In this document: in pieces, positions 43,795 to 62,404 of the stretch
Numbering within the stretch: position 1 is the first letter of the stretch
Layout: each line of letters opens with the position of its first letter
NCBI RefSeq assembly: GCF_003958625.1
Contig: NZ_RSEL01000013.1
Location: 1-64,000 of the forward strand
Direction: 5' to 3'
DNA: 64,000 nucleotides
Origin: Tsuneonella rigui
GTDB taxonomy: Bacteria; Pseudomonadota; Alphaproteobacteria; Sphingomonadales; Sphingomonadaceae
The notes under the pieces: model-generated
The model's database searches: none
What the model saw: only the letters and a program-made list of their open reading frames with translations
Told to the model about the DNA's origin: nothing
Made by a program: the position numbers and the translations under genes

Positions 43795-44184
43795 GTGGAA
43801 ATTGGAGGGGCAATTGAGCAGGGTTTGCTTGCTCTCGCTGATTCAGCCTACCCATTGGAGGCGTGCGGCTTATTGCTAGGTGTTGGCGACCGGATCACGG
43901 AGGCCCGTTCGTGCTCCAACGTGCACCCTGAGCCCACTCGTCATTTCGAGATCGACCCGCAAGCGCTGATCGACGCGCACCGCGCCGAACGAGGCGGCGG
44001 ACCTTCCGTGCTCGGCTCTTTTCACTCCCATCCGTCCGGCCCGCCCGAACCCAGCGTGACCGACCGCGCGCATGCCACAGGTGACGGCCGGGTGTGGGCG
44101 ATCGTCGGTGAAGGGAAGGTCGGCTGGTGGCGGGACACACCGGATGGTTTCCAGCCACTTTCCTACGCGCCGTGTGACAGGTAG
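43795..44184 (+). CDS. JAB/Mov34 (JAMM) metallopeptidase-like protein
   Basis: 129 residues from GTG 43795 (VEIGGAIEQG); a GTG 4 codons earlier lies in the repeat element. The MPN domain shows the whole JAMM set: Glu in YPLEACGLLLG and HSHPSGPPEPSVTD (H-x-H-x7-S-x2-D). Bacterial members can cleave ubiquitin-like sulfur carriers or act in cysteine and thiamine-related pathways; no such partner is nearby. It is directly upstream of chpT on the same strand. Confidence 0.82.
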   Translation: MEIGGAIEQGLLALADSAYPLEACGLLLGVGDRITEARSCSNVHPEPTRHFEIDPQALIDAHRAERGGGPSVLGSFHSHPSGPPEPSVTDRAHATGDGRVWAIVGEGKVGWWRDTPDGFQPLSYAPCDR

Positions 44185-44264
44185 GGCGCGGTAGTGCGCT
44201 GTTTCGCCAACCACCTTTGCTCCTTTTTCCGGCCAGTTCGATGAGTGGTGGTTTCTTCGCCAGA

Positions 44265-44294
44265 ACAGTGTGACAAGTGTGACAAGTCCAACAG
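44265..44294 (+). repeat. 30-bp repeat, copy 1 (upstream of chpT)
   Basis: Reads ACAG-TGTGACAAG-TGTGACAAG-TCCAACAG, a tandem of two 9-base units. An identical 30-base sequence occurs at 62228-62257 on the other strand. It ends 16 bases before the chpT ATG, in the same orientation relative to the gene as the queE copy. Confidence 0.8.
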
Positions 44295-44310: not shown

Positions 44311-44955
44311 ATGACCCAGACCGATCCGCTCGACCTTGCCAGCCTGCTCTGTTCGCGCCTGTGCCATGACCTGCTGTCGCCGGTCGGCGCGCTGACCAAC
44401 GGGCTTGAACTGCTGGCCGATGAGCGCGACCCCGACATGCGCCAGCGCTGCTTCGAACTGCTCGAACAGAGCGCCAAGATCAGTGCAGACAAGCTCAAGT
44501 TCTTCCGCCTCGCCTTCGGCGCCGCCGGCGGCTTCGGCGAAAGCGTGCCGGTCGACGAGGCCAAGGCGGTGACCGAAGCGCTGGTCGGCGACGCCAAGCG
44601 GGTGGAGCTCAACTGGGCGCTCAGCGCCGATCGCCTGCCCAAGGGCGCGGTCAAGGTCCTGCTCAACTTCGCGCAGATCGGGCTCGACGCGCTGGTTCGC
44701 GGCGGCACGCTCGATGTCGGCGCCGAAAGTCGTGGCGGGGCGAGCGAGATCGTGGTGCGCGCCGCTGGTCCTCGCATTGCGTTCGACGAGACCATCGGAC
44801 GGGCGCTGGAAGGGGGGCTGTCGCAGGGCGAACTCACCAGCCGCACCGCCGCCGCGCACATGCTGTCGATGCTGGCGGCGCAGGCGGGCGGGGGCCTCCA
44901 GTACATGCTGTCCGAAGAAGCGCTGGTGCTCGGCGCGGTACTGCCTGAGGGCTGA
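44311..44955 (+). CDS. chpT: Histidine phosphotransferase ChpT
   Basis: Relays phosphate from the hybrid kinase CckA to the master regulator CtrA (and CpdR) in alphaproteobacteria. 214 residues: N-terminal four-helix DHp-like region with phosphoacceptor His19 in SRLCHDLLSPVGALTNGLELL, then a degenerate HATPase-like domain that cannot bind ATP (no N box). ATG 44311 (MTQTDPLD); an in-frame GTG at 44245 would add 22 residues containing QCDKCDKSN, from the repeat element. Stop overlaps the next gene (TGATG). Confidence 0.88.
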   Translation: MTQTDPLDLASLLCSRLCHDLLSPVGALTNGLELLADERDPDMRQRCFELLEQSAKISADKLKFFRLAFGAAGGFGESVPVDEAKAVTEALVGDAKRVELNWALSADRLPKGAVKVLLNFAQIGLDALVRGGTLDVGAESRGGASEIVVRAAGPRIAFDETIGRALEGGLSQGELTSRTAAAHMLSMLAAQAGGGLQYMLSEEALVLGAVLPEG

Positions 44956-45662: not shown

Positions 45663-46053
45663 GCGCCAGGAGGCTGGGCAGTCGCGGCTTTTTGCCGAGG
45701 AAAGTCCGGGCTCCACGAAACAAGGGTGGCGGGTAACGCCCGCCCGGGGCAACCCGAGGGAAAGTGCCACAGAGAGCAGACCGCCTCGTTCGCGAGGTAA
45801 GGGTGAAAGGGTGCGGCAAGAGCGCACCGGGGTGCTGGCAACAGCGCTCGCACGGCAAACCCCACCCGGAGCAAGGCCAAATAGGGGCCTCGCGCCATGC
45901 AAGTGGCAGGGACGTTTCGTCCCGAGAGGCCCGGGTTGGCTGCTCGAGCCGGCGGGCAATCGCCGGCCTAGACGAATGGCTGCCCCCGAGCGGCCGGTCT
46001 CCTTCGGGAGATACCGCGCACGGGACAGAACCCGGCTTACAGGCCTCCTGGCA
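45663..46053 (+). ncRNA. rnpB: RNase P RNA
   Basis: Catalytic RNA that matures tRNA 5' ends. The P1 helix is GCCAGGAGGC (45665-45674) pairing with GCCTCCTGGC (46043-46052). Conserved cores are present: GAGGAAAGTCCGGGCTCC, the AACGCCCGCCCGGGG region, GAGGGAAAGTGCCACAGAGA, GGTAAGGGTGAAAGGGTGCGG, and the 3' ACAGAACCCGGCTTACAGG. About 390 bases, alphaproteobacterial type A. Confidence 0.95.
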
Positions 46054-46123
46054 CTATCTTTCGTTGCGATTTCCGAAGGGTGGCGACAGAGCGGCCTCAC
46101 GAGTCTTTTGGGGAGCTTAAAAC

Positions 46124-50535: not shown

Positions 50536-51294
50536 ATGCTTACGTCCACTCGCGGCTTGATCGCCGCCTTTATGTTCTCTGCAGCCTTCGTCGCTTCTCC
50601 CGCGTTCGCGCAGGAAGAGGGTGATGATACCAGTTCGATTACTGTTTCCGGAAGCGTCACGCTCGTTTCCGATTACCGCTTCCGCGGCGTCTCGCTGTCG
50701 GGCGGGGATCCGGCGATCCAGGGCGGGGTCACTGTCACCAGCAATAGCGGGTTCTATGTTGGAACCTGGGCTTCGTCGATCGACGATGGCGGGACTGACA
50801 TCTACGGCGACGCCGAGGTCGATCTGTTCGGCGGGTGGAGCGGCAATGTCGCCGAGGGCGTCGGCCTCGATGTCGGCCTGCTCTACTACGCGTATCCCGG
50901 CAACGCGAAGGGCTTCGACGCCGAGTACTTCGAACCCTACGCCACAATCAGCGGCGAGCTGGGGCCGGTGCAAGCCAAGCTCGGCGTGAACTACGCGTGG
51001 GAACAGGACTCGCTCGGCGGGGACGATAACCTGTACATCCATACCGAGCTCAGCTCGGGTATTCCGGCGACGCCGCTGACCCTCTCGGCGCACCTCGGCT
51101 ACACCGACGGCGTTCAGGCTCCGCCGCTGCTGGCGGGCACGGGCGACGACACCGGCTTCGACTGGTCGCTCGGCGCGAGTGCGGCGGTGTTGGGCAACTT
51201 GACCCTTGGCGTGTCCTACGTCGGTACCGAAGGTCCCTCGATCGACGGATTTACCGACGACGCGGTGGTGTTTTCGGTAGGCGCCAGCTTCTGA
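50536..51294 (+). CDS. TorF-family putative porin (Gcw_chp)
   Basis: 252 residues. Signal peptide (FSAAFVASPAFAQ). The mature sequence is a 10-12 strand beta-barrel pattern with GSVTLVSDYRFRGVSLSGGDPAIQGGV near the start, as in the Gcw_chp/TorF family, and ends in aromatic Phe (VGASF) for outer-membrane assembly. Upstream 237-base spacer is a divergent promoter region with an AGGAG site before ATG. A strong terminator follows. Confidence 0.85.
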   Translation: MLTSTRGLIAAFMFSAAFVASPAFAQEEGDDTSSITVSGSVTLVSDYRFRGVSLSGGDPAIQGGVTVTSNSGFYVGTWASSIDDGGTDIYGDAEVDLFGGWSGNVAEGVGLDVGLLYYAYPGNAKGFDAEYFEPYATISGELGPVQAKLGVNYAWEQDSLGGDDNLYIHTELSSGIPATPLTLSAHLGYTDGVQAPPLLAGTGDDTGFDWSLGASAAVLGNLTLGVSYVGTEGPSIDGFTDDAVVFSVGASF

Positions 51295-60023: not shown

Positions 60024-61493
60024 CTACAATTCGGGCTTGAACCGCCCCGCGGCCTCGCCGTCGGTGTGCGCTTCCTCTGCCGCGCGCTCGGGACTGATCG
60101 CGCGGCCCAACTCGCGCCAACCCGGCCGGCGGTAGAACCAGATCGCGATCACCATCGACACCAGCGACCCGAACGAGAAGCACCACCACAGCGCGTCCTG
60201 CCCGAGCACATCGCGGAATCCGTAGTAGAAACCGAGCCGCGCGGGGAACATCGCGATACCGAGCGCAATCAGCGGCACCCAGACCACGCCGCCCGCGCGC
60301 ATCGTGCCGAACAGCACGATCGTCACCCCGAACAGGATGAAACTCCAGCTGGCGAGGAACTGGATGTGCCGGGCGAGCGGCACGGCCGGGCTGTCGGGCC
60401 CGAGGAACAGCACCAGCGCCGGGCGGTCGAATAGCAGCAGCAACGCCGTCATCGTGCCGGTCATGACGAGGTTGATGAGGATGCCCGCCCGACTGATCGC
60501 GTCGAGCCGTTCGGGCAACCGCGCACCGATCGCCTGCGCGGCCATCGCGCTCACCCCGGCGCCGATCGCCATCGCCGGCATCTGCAGATAAGTCCACAGC
60601 TGGAGCGAGGCGCCGTAGGCGGCCGCGGCGTTGATCCCGTAGCGGTTGACCAGACCCACGATCACGATGCCGGCCGACGATATCAGCAGCATCTGCGCGC
60701 CCATCGGCAGGCCCTTGCCGACGATGTAACCGAGCTCCGCGCGCCGTGGGATCAGGTAGCCGAGTTCTGTACCGCGCAGCCGCAACGGCAAGTCCTTGGC
60801 GTAGACGTAGGCGAGCAGCGCCGCGAGCGACGCGTAGCCGGCAAAGGCGGTCGAGGCGGCCGAGCCGGCGATGCCCATCTTCGGGAACGGCCCGACGCCC
60901 GCGATCAGCAATGGGTTGAGCACCACGTCGAGCACCACCGACAGCGCCATGAACAGGAACGGCGTCTTGGAATCGCCCGCGCCGCGCAGCCCCATCGCGA
61001 TCATCACCGTCAGCATGCCGCCCGGGATCGAGACGAAGATGATCCGCAGGTACGCGAGCGCCAGCGCGTAGCTTTCGCCGGGTGTCGCCAGCAGGGTCAG
61101 CAGGTTCGGCGCGAAGATCCAGCCGGCGAGCGCGACCACCACCGCGAGCGCGACGCACAGCCCGACCGCGCTGCCGAAGGTGCGACGCGCGACATCGACC
61201 TCGCCGGCGCCGAACGCCTGGCCCATCTTGACCGTCGCCGCCATGCCGAAGCCGAAGACGGCGGCGAACACTAGGAACATGACGATGTTGGCATTGGCGG
61301 TCGCCGCCAGCGCGGCATCGCCGATCAGCCGCCCGACCCAGATCGAATTGACCGTGCCGTTTAACGACTGGAGCAGGTTCGAGCCGAGCGTCGGCAAGCT
61401 GAACATGACGAGCGTCCTCAGCACTGGCCCACTCGTCAGATCGCGCATGCCGCTTCGCTGCGGGGCGGCGGGAGAGGCATCGCCTTCGCTCAT
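60024..61493 (-). CDS. MATE family efflux transporter
   Basis: 489 residues, 12 helices in two six-helix bundles. Features: TLGSNLLQSLNGTVNSIWVGRLIGDAALAATANANIVMF and AIGAGVSAMAAQAIGARLPERLD, typical of MATE/NorM-like drug or metabolite-sodium/proton antiporters. ATG 61493 overlaps the queE stop (ATGA), so it is coupled to queuosine synthesis gene queE. Confidence 0.92.
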   Translation of the reverse strand: MSEGDASPAAPQRSGMRDLTSGPVLRTLVMFSLPTLGSNLLQSLNGTVNSIWVGRLIGDAALAATANANIVMFLVFAAVFGFGMAATVKMGQAFGAGEVDVARRTFGSAVGLCVALAVVVALAGWIFAPNLLTLLATPGESYALALAYLRIIFVSIPGGMLTVMIAMGLRGAGDSKTPFLFMALSVVLDVVLNPLLIAGVGPFPKMGIAGSAASTAFAGYASLAALLAYVYAKDLPLRLRGTELGYLIPRRAELGYIVGKGLPMGAQMLLISSAGIVIVGLVNRYGINAAAAYGASLQLWTYLQMPAMAIGAGVSAMAAQAIGARLPERLDAISRAGILINLVMTGTMTALLLLFDRPALVLFLGPDSPAVPLARHIQFLASWSFILFGVTIVLFGTMRAGGVVWVPLIALGIAMFPARLGFYYGFRDVLGQDALWWCFSFGSLVSMVIAIWFYRRPGWRELGRAISPERAAEEAHTDGEAAGRFKPEL

Positions 61494-62224
61494 GTGCCGC
61501 GGGTGTCGCCGAACAGGTGGATATGCAACCGATCGGACACCTTGAAGCCGTGGCCGGCAGCGAGCGGGGCCAGCCATTCGAGGCGGGAGCGCAGCGTCGC
61601 GCTATCGGTGCCCTCGGGCATCAGGAAGACTTTGTCGGGCGAGATGGCATAGGCGCGCTGCAGGAACAGAACCTCGTCCACATCGGCGGGTTCCGCGATC
61701 ACGAACTTAAAGAACGCGCGGGGCTCGCTCGCCCATTGCCGCATACGCGGCGGCAGCAGCGCGAGCGTGGCGGGGTTGCCGCTGTGCGATAGCTTGGGGC
61801 TGACGTTGTACTGCTCGACATAGGCGTCGAAGCGCGGATGCGGCTCGACGGTGCCGTTCGTTTCGACCTCGATCGCGTGCTCGGGGAGGAGCGCGGCGAG
61901 CTCGGCGAGGGCGGGGGCCTGGAGCAGCGGCTCGCCGCCGGTGACAACGAGGCGGCGCGGCTCGAACCGGTCGATCATCCGCGCGGCTTCGAGCGGGCTC
62001 AATGCGAGCTGGTTGGCCTTGCGGTCATAGCTGACGCCGGCACGGTGCGGGCGTTCGTCCCCGTCGAAGCGCCAGGTGTAGGCGGTGTCGCACCACTGGC
62101 ACGCGAGGTTGCAGCGGCTCAGCCGGATGAAGCTGCACGCTATGCCGGCGGACGGACCCTCGCCTTGCGGAGAGGCGAAAATCTCCGGCCCGCCGGTGTC
62201 ATCGGTGGCGAGCGTCAGCTGCAT
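61490..62224 (-). CDS. queE: 7-carboxy-7-deazaguanine synthase QueE
   Basis: Radical-SAM enzyme making CDG from CPH4 in the queuosine/7-deazaguanine pathway. 244 residues; cluster motif RLSRCNLACQWCDTAYTW (C-x3-C-x2-C, clade variant). Other queuosine genes (queC, queD) are not in the window. The ATG is 3 bases after copy 2 of the 30-bp repeat. Coupled to the MATE gene downstream. Confidence 0.92.
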   Translation of the reverse strand: MQLTLATDDTGGPEIFASPQGEGPSAGIACSFIRLSRCNLACQWCDTAYTWRFDGDERPHRAGVSYDRKANQLALSPLEAARMIDRFEPRRLVVTGGEPLLQAPALAELAALLPEHAIEVETNGTVEPHPRFDAYVEQYNVSPKLSHSGNPATLALLPPRMRQWASEPRAFFKFVIAEPADVDEVLFLQRAYAISPDKVFLMPEGTDSATLRSRLEWLAPLAAGHGFKVSDRLHIHLFGDTRGT

Positions 62225-62227
62225 CGG

Positions 62228-62257
62228 CTGTTGGACTTGTCACACTTGTCACACTGT
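62228..62257 (-). repeat. 30-bp repeat, copy 2 (upstream of queE)
   Basis: Identical over all 30 bases to 44265-44294, read on the minus strand; contains two tandem TGTGACAAG units and ends 3 bases before the queE ATG. Confidence 0.8.
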
Positions 62258-62269
62258 CCAGGGACAAGA

Positions 62270-62319
62270 GTCGCCTTGCGCGCAATTGTGTCGCCTTGCG
62301 GCCAAAGTGTCGCCTTGCG
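62270..62319 (-). repeat. Triple 11-bp direct repeat upstream of queE
   Basis: CGCAAGGCGAC (minus strand) occurs three times, at 62309-62319, 62290-62300 and 62270-62280, spaced 19 and 20 bases, in the valS-queE gap next to the 30-bp repeat. Confidence 0.7.
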
Positions 62320-62404
62320 AGCAGAAACAGAGAGTGCGGCGAACGACATGGTCCGCGCGCCTTGGCACATTCGCGCCGTGTAGGAAAACCGCCCCGGCGG
62401 AGAG

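Follow-up and report, generated by a model that had tools for sequence, protein, structure and literature searches.

The window, a 64,000-nucleotide stretch of Tsuneonella rigui DNA, holds two genes, chpT and queE, that are each preceded by the same short element (Table 1). As the first-pass annotation had reported, the two 30-mers are identical at all 30 positions, share their orientation relative to the gene that follows, and stop 16 bases short of the chpT ATG (44311) and 3 bases short of the queE ATG (62224). It had also described a unit carried twice by each 30-mer; the window contains TGTGACAAG exactly four times, always within these two elements, and GTGTGACA five times, versus 0.96 expected, a count reached in none of 100 shuffles. 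Within the 30-mer lie two 9-bp direct repeats, TGTGACA-AG-TGTGACA, hereafter R-R. The same annotation pointed out that both copies read QCDKCDKSN in their frame. This is true of the window copies and fails as a general rule: over 104 copies, frames run into R-R in all three phases (42, 33 and 29 copies), and the repeat words of other genomes translate differently, so that a coding repeat can be rejected. Elsewhere in the window, an RNase P RNA gene lies 0.7 kb downstream of chpT (45666-46055, +; Rfam RF00010, 296 bits), and TGTCCTAC is present at 51212-51219 (+) with no R-R, seemingly within a coding region and probably by chance.

Table 1. Positions in the window of the two elements, their downstream genes and the features of their leaders
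Feature	Position	Strand	Remarks
TTTCCTAC, -35-like left block of the chpT element	44159..44166	+	106 bp before the AC of R-R
GGTAGG at the -10-like block position, chpT element	44180..44185	+	offset 19 from TCCTAC
Candidate upstream reading frame, chpT element	44194..44244	+	GTG at the leaderless position, offset 33
R-R element before chpT	44265..44294	+	constant CAGAAC block precedes its repeats
R1 (TGTGACA) of the chpT element	44269..44275	+	
R2 (TGTGACA) of the chpT element	44278..44284	+	
chpT	44311..44955	+	downstream of the element; Pfam HPTransfase 3.6e-33
queE	61490..62224	-	downstream of the element; Pfam Radical_SAM 1.3e-7 and Fer4_12; orthologues compared
Upstream reading frame, queE element	62215..62349	-	ATG at the leaderless position, 62349
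R-R element before queE	62228..62257	-	R1 62253-62247, R2 62244-62238
Array unit CAAGGCGACT, second type of site, queE leader	62269..62278	-	
Array unit CAAGGCGACA, second type of site, queE leader	62289..62298	-	
Array unit CAAGGCGACA, second type of site, queE leader	62308..62317	-	
TTTCCTAC, left block of the queE element	62380..62387	-	

In the 2.86 Mb source genome (30 contigs), the 18-mer core TGTGACAAGTGTGACAAG is found 14 times without a mismatch and 4 times with 1-2 mismatches, against five matches to a reversed control pattern at up to two mismatches. The HerA protein encoded there is matched best by proteins of Tsuneonella species. The core counts exclude chance as the origin of the copies. 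By inspection, a gene on the same strand starts 13 to about 140 bp downstream of 14 of the 18. One of the remaining four lies inside a gene (L014), another in the 3′ part of the frame of a related gene (L017), and two sit beside convergent genes (L010, L013). A bias toward start codons and toward one strand, which the annotation had proposed to look for genome-wide, is thus present. Recent duplication of a larger segment, which it had named as the outcome that would speak against its reading, is not the case, the sequences flanking the copies being unrelated. Of its broader suggestion, a dispersed functional or mobile sequence, the protein target site survives, and is favoured because site sequence and the recognition helix of a single protein vary together (see below). 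A freely mobile repeat finds no support, because many positions are orthologous between genera.

Upstream of queE in other members of the family, the same architecture is found with other repeat words, which we call dialects. A degenerate pattern detects R-R in 24 of 119 family genomes with no control match, and in a class-wide draw it appears in 3 of 289 genomes (the source genome, G024 and, as a lone match, G345), with one control match. All 11 genomes of the genus carry R-R at up to one mismatch, with one control match among the matches listed. Their dialects are TGTGACA (6 genomes), TGTTCCA (G004), TGGTCCA (G006) and TGTAACA with GGTCCA (G001, G005); G007 has a single degraded R-R among the matches listed. 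A second group of genomes is marked by TGTCRCC-TT repeats, and one of them, G153, has 27 matches at up to one mismatch versus one in the control. Within a genome the wording is near-uniform in many cases, in several of them even at the spacer base, and mixed in some, as with TGTAACA and GGTCCA. Since one dialect serves nearly all sites of a genome, neither recent duplication nor peptide coding explains R-R.

The dialects switch at orthologous sites. Among the sites fetched, this is seen before an enoyl-CoA hydratase gene (8 genomes), moaC (7), pdxH (6) and queE (6), and 14 of the 18 own sites are common to at least one of four congeners. Pfam scans of downstream genes give MoaC, RuvA and GcpE (IspG) above the cut-off and enoyl-CoA hydratase and signal peptidase below it; the scanned fragment that we take to be pdxH has no Pfam match. 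The target genes have no obvious common pathway. Two lone sites, L205 (G129) and L249 (G014), are written in the dialect of another genome, TGGTCCA-TG-CGGTCCA, with a complete tail, which suggests horizontal import of the gene together with its leader.

We compared the surroundings of R-R in 147 distinct family copies, sequence duplicates having been removed; the reverse-strand readings of L018 and L221 were dropped, as were L098 and L134, and loci fetched later are absent. TCCTAC lies 100-206 bp upstream of R-R in 116 of the 147 copies, at 104-108 bp in 51 of them. In the alignment, the left block CT[TG]TCCTAC is followed after some 13 bases by a -10-like SCATAG or GCTAG and then by ATG, which stands at offset 33-36 in 100 of the 116 copies. 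We read it as a putative promoter, typically about 107 bp upstream of R-R, with an ATG where the transcript is expected to begin. The pattern on its own is unspecific, with eight matches in the source genome, three of them at R-R, and four in the control. From an ATG at the leaderless position, the frame is open as far as R-R in 101 of 104 copies (41 and 69 for the shifted frames). Together with the free phase through the repeats, this fits a translated leaderless frame in which the repeat is kept as nucleotides. The upstream frame of queE stays open through R-R, and its stop overlaps the queE start. The chpT copy is one of the 12 among the 116 with no ATG at the leaderless position, and its candidate upstream frame, read by hand, terminates ahead of R-R. 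At L257 (G000, the source genome, C13:278416-278443, -), a weak, degenerate R-R (GTCAGTGTGACACCTGCGAC) lies some 200 bp beyond a left block; because searches at two mismatches miss sites of this kind, the own count of 18 is a lower bound.

Immediately before the repeats, the order is a T tract (TTT in 111 of 147 copies), CAG[GA]AC-N-G, and R-N2-R, and the interior between left block and R-R is unrelated among copies. Hairpins ahead of the T tract are modestly enriched (34% vs 20%). A consistent intrinsic terminator was rejected on a mean folding z of -0.5 over 136 copies, 23 of which fall below -1.5. Helical phasing of the left block with R-R was also rejected: a period of 11-11.5 bp scores high on all 116 distances and weakly on the 56 over 110 bp, for which nR2 at 11 bp is 3.7 and 11 bp is not the best period. 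At the elements of the window and of 10 loci, Rfam recognises no known RNA family. The queE ATG of T. litorea (L063) directly follows a similar promoter and the insert is absent, a single example judged by eye. Several leaders of the TGTCRCC genomes (L264-L289) carry an extra CCTGTCCGTCACC or similar unit about 60-80 bp before GGTGACAGGG-R-R; the stretch between is AT-rich, like an operator pair round a second promoter.

One of two sites found in eight genomes falls inside the coding region of a gene for a helix-turn-helix (HTH) protein, which has 33-49% identity to proteins in nine other genomes; in the source genome (G000) this gene lies at about C24:118402-118710. The protein matches the phage terminase small subunit profile PHROG 4044 (4e-16 for the own protein, 2.2e-20 for that of G004 and 1.9e-4 for a second own paralogue). 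Pfam and NCBIfam give HTH matches below the cut-off alone, with Pfam Sf6_terminase at 0.17 for G004, and a sequence search of the PDB yields no credible relative, the best match being ribosomal L20 at 0.004. The location of the gene is fixed, after a gene that we take to be uvrA-like and before a presumably rlpA-like gene and argG (Pfam 4.6e-37); the uvrA-like neighbour has weak Pfam ATPase matches only, and the rlpA-like one has no Pfam match. In seven loci of about 10-20 kb, these neighbours are conserved and no large terminase subunit was recognised among them by reading the neighbours and by Pfam scans of some. On this survey, the HTH gene does not stand beside a terminase large subunit gene and phage head genes.

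Among 37 genomes, each represented by its fitting or best-matching gene, R-R lies inside the HTH reading frame in 30: 16 of the 18 in the first set, 8 of the 9 with a queE dialect already known, and 6 of the 10 added later. In three more (G016, G135, G115) it lies within 40 bases after the stop, and in the HTH gene of the other four (G029, G451, G060, G137) it was not found. One of the five left-block matches away from R-R in the source genome stands 76 bases before the start of this gene. In the genus, all 10 genomes with at least six R-R have an orthologue at E <1e-43, and the best match in G007, with its one degraded R-R, is 3e-9. Over 36 family genomes, gene and R-R presence are associated (16/1/2/17; Fisher p = 6e-7) at a threshold of 1e-34 that was picked after the data had been seen and with G012 counted by its paralogue; G025 has the gene and no R-R match.

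The recognition helix of this protein, its position set by eye on weak HTH matches, changes with the dialect. In a table of 18 genomes, ten of which yielded the rule and eight of which came afterwards, YRT[VA]Y accompanies TGTGACA (6/6), HQ[TS][AVC]Y accompanies GGTCCA or TGTAACA/GGTCCA (7/7), [AP]QTAY accompanies TGTTCCA (4/4) and, in one genome, RSTTY accompanies TGTGTCA. The helix class matches the dialect in all 18, and none of 20000 permutations does as well, although the permutation ignores descent. G012 entered this table by its second-best match, the one holding R-R, and G027 and G028, with weak protein matches, were excluded. When the queE dialect of further genomes was read first, the helices were as expected for TGTTCCA (3/3), the GGTCCA types (5/5) and TGTCACC with SRQSAY (3/3). 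Outside these 11 genomes, L119, with dialect TGTCTCA, has a new helix, ARATAY; at L098, GPNTAY is the best match and RQSAY the second; the helix of L107 is unclear; and the genome of L100, a metagenome bin, has R-R at queE and no HTH match.

The final set comprised the remaining 12 of the R-R genomes from the 119-genome survey, two of which (G098, G149) were already covered via L069 and L072, leaving 10 new ones; G447, G459, G457 and G454 are the same as G009, G008, G098 and G149 (same coordinates) and were counted once. Eight of the 10 fit by best match: G060, G111, G113 and G135 with [AP]QTAY, G067, G092 and G138 with HQT[AV]Y, and G115 (TGTCTCA) with RATVY, the class of L119. Allowing a second-best match that holds R-R adds G097, for nine; G137, with a single R-R and no [AP]Q protein, disagrees. 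Overall, 29 of the 32 R-R genomes from the 119-genome survey and the genus search fit the rule, 27 of them by best match (G007 left out), and the misfits are G137 together with G027 (one R-R) and G028 (four R-R, 85% complete), both with weak protein matches only. The code is not one to one, because the HQ class accompanies both TGTAACA and GGTCCA halves. Judging from the tree of the whole domain, which needs three changes for four dialects, the least possible, part of the association is shared descent. When the helix region is left out, TGTGACA still clusters and the GGTCCA class is scattered, with five changes, a number as low in 290 of 500 shuffles. A UvrA tree puts G006 beside G000 (support 81/84) despite their different helices and dialects.

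A second type of site accompanies some R-R copies. Arrays of CAAGGCGACA units, spaced 19-21 bp, stand just upstream of R-R on the same strand at 7 of the 18 own sites, and all 13 array junctions found by pattern in the source genome fall at those seven. The second own paralogue of the HTH protein (L017) has the helix GRQSAYKLRA, of the type of the TGTCRCC genomes, and its reading frame contains a AAGGCGACA array, the reverse of TGTCGCCTT, plus R-R. Since the frame of the RQSAYKLRA paralogue itself holds an array, this second protein probably binds the arrays before R-R, among them the window's array at queE. Genomes of the genus have 2-10 matches each to the small-terminase-like HTH family, with varied helices (L437, L438, L439, L440, L447 and similar); among the other paralogues examined, R-R is found only in that of L017, and each may have sites of its own. 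Period-9 TG repeats lie in or beside a related HTH gene at L408 (G037; TGTGACTTTTGTGACT), L412 (G035; TGTCACTTTTGTCACT) and L406 (G033; TGTCAACAGTGTCAAC). One such locus comes from another family of the order, and the link may predate the family.

We consider it likely that R-R is an operator-like site of the PHROG 4044-type HTH protein, which would be an autoregulated transcription regulator. The site recurs in one orientation before gene starts, it is found at the gene of the candidate regulator, and the specificity of the protein, as far as covariation can indicate, matches the site. The protein would read two head-to-tail 9-bp units behind the constant CAG[GA]AC block, and because R-R usually lies within its own coding region, it probably regulates itself. 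Its further sites, of which the source genome has 18, belong to unrelated genes and fall mostly near the beginning of their predicted transcripts; upstream stands a candidate promoter whose -35-like box reads T[TG]TCCTAC, with an AUG where transcription would start. Bound just downstream of such a promoter, the protein would most likely control transcription there. Binding there, some 70 bp into the predicted transcript, would most simply hinder elongation and so repress the gene, as a block that polymerase must pass, perhaps aided by ribosomes on the upstream frame. The specificity of the protein and that of its sites would shift together between species.

How such a protein arose is less certain, and with modest confidence we favour the idea that a phage small terminase was domesticated as a chromosomal regulator. 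Its operators, up to two dozen and for the most part close to promoters, would descend from a pac-like site in its own gene, and specificity of protein and sites would have been rewired jointly several times within single genera. As part of this reading, the helices YRT, HQ, AQ/PQ, RQS, RST and RAT may form a recognition-code series against TGTGACA, GGTCCA/TGTAACA, TGTTCCA, TGTCRCC, TGTGTCA and TGTCTCA, respectively. The HTH domain and the region following it match the profile of the small subunits (PHROG 4044; P22 gp3, SPP1/SF6 gp1). According to PMC9611059 and PMC4737164, the P22 pac site lies inside the small terminase gene, and that of SPP1 contains direct repeats and spans the start of its small terminase gene, much as R-R is a direct repeat inside or beside the HTH gene. 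Unlike these phage genes, the gene described here is chromosomal, has no large subunit recognised beside it and has many dispersed sites before metabolic genes. The DNA-binding domain of the SF6 protein, according to PMC4737164, binds pac almost without specificity, whereas the protein considered here appears strongly specific.

The same homology could mean that R-R is still a packaging (pac-like) signal, at which the protein marks host DNA for a gene transfer agent or a satellite, the dispersed sites being packaging starts. Some sites do lie at a gene that we take from its sequence to be lysozyme-like, and after a presumably holin-like gene. Yet packaging has no need of the ties to promoters, start codons and one strand, and the neighbourhood of the HTH gene, between the uvrA-like and the rlpA-like and argG genes, offers no recognised partner subunit. 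We therefore regard this reading as unlikely, and keep it because the pac sites of P22 and SPP1 (PMC9611059, PMC4737164) lie in or at the small terminase gene, as R-R does. R-R might also act as RNA, a 5′-leader element for an RNA-binding protein or a small RNA that is read with the leaderless upstream frame, by attenuation or translational coupling. Its place within the predicted leader, the open upstream frame that often ends near the main start codon, the T tract with some hairpin enrichment, and the leaderless queE of L063 would all suit such a role. However, sites also occur in coding regions and beside convergent genes, Rfam has no match at the elements searched, the 19-21 bp spacing of the arrays suggests one face of the DNA, and it is the turn-and-helix part of the HTH protein that covaries, so we hold action as RNA to be rather improbable. 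That R-R is a short mobile or self-copying repeat with a preference for promoter-proximal positions, its dialects reflecting bursts of copying, seems to us very improbable: it would account for the near-uniform sequence within a genome, several times down to the spacer base, but not for the orthologous positions shared with congeners or for the unrelated stretch between left block and R-R.

The operator reading has parallels among characterised regulators. LexA is an example of an autoregulated bacterial repressor regulon with co-evolving operators. Like LexA-type regulons, the R-R system appears to combine a single HTH protein, whose own gene bears a site, with 10-25 mostly promoter-proximal sites and with operators that change together with the helix; unlike them, it has head-to-tail 9-bp units, sites in leaders or coding regions, and four dialects in one genus. 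The ops element of RfaH resembles R-R in its copy number of roughly 10 per genome, in lying early in transcribed regions and in keeping one orientation, whereas tandem repeats and dialects set R-R apart. RfaH/ops itself, which involves a NusG paralogue, was rejected, as each of 30 genomes (30/30) has one NusG match. A DNA-binding protein with co-evolving operators is of a known kind, while a small-terminase-like one with the R-R architecture is absent from the literature searched, in which we found neither any of twelve exact dialect words nor, judging by the listings, a small terminase acting as a gene regulator.

It has long been asked how a transcription factor can acquire a new DNA specificity when tens of sites have to follow. 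The R-R sites make this directly testable: a single bacterial family contains at least six dialects and a single genus four of these, many of them are found at orthologous positions, and a candidate helix has been identified. If the domestication of a small terminase is true, it would be a new source of bacterial regulators and would bear on the poorly resolved question of how these phage proteins recognise DNA. Because R-R precedes conserved genes (queE, chpT, moaC, pdxH, ruvA, ispG), the annotation of starts and leaders in the Erythrobacteraceae should consider the upstream frame and the element. With up to two dozen sites per genome, the R-R family points to an undescribed system of gene control.
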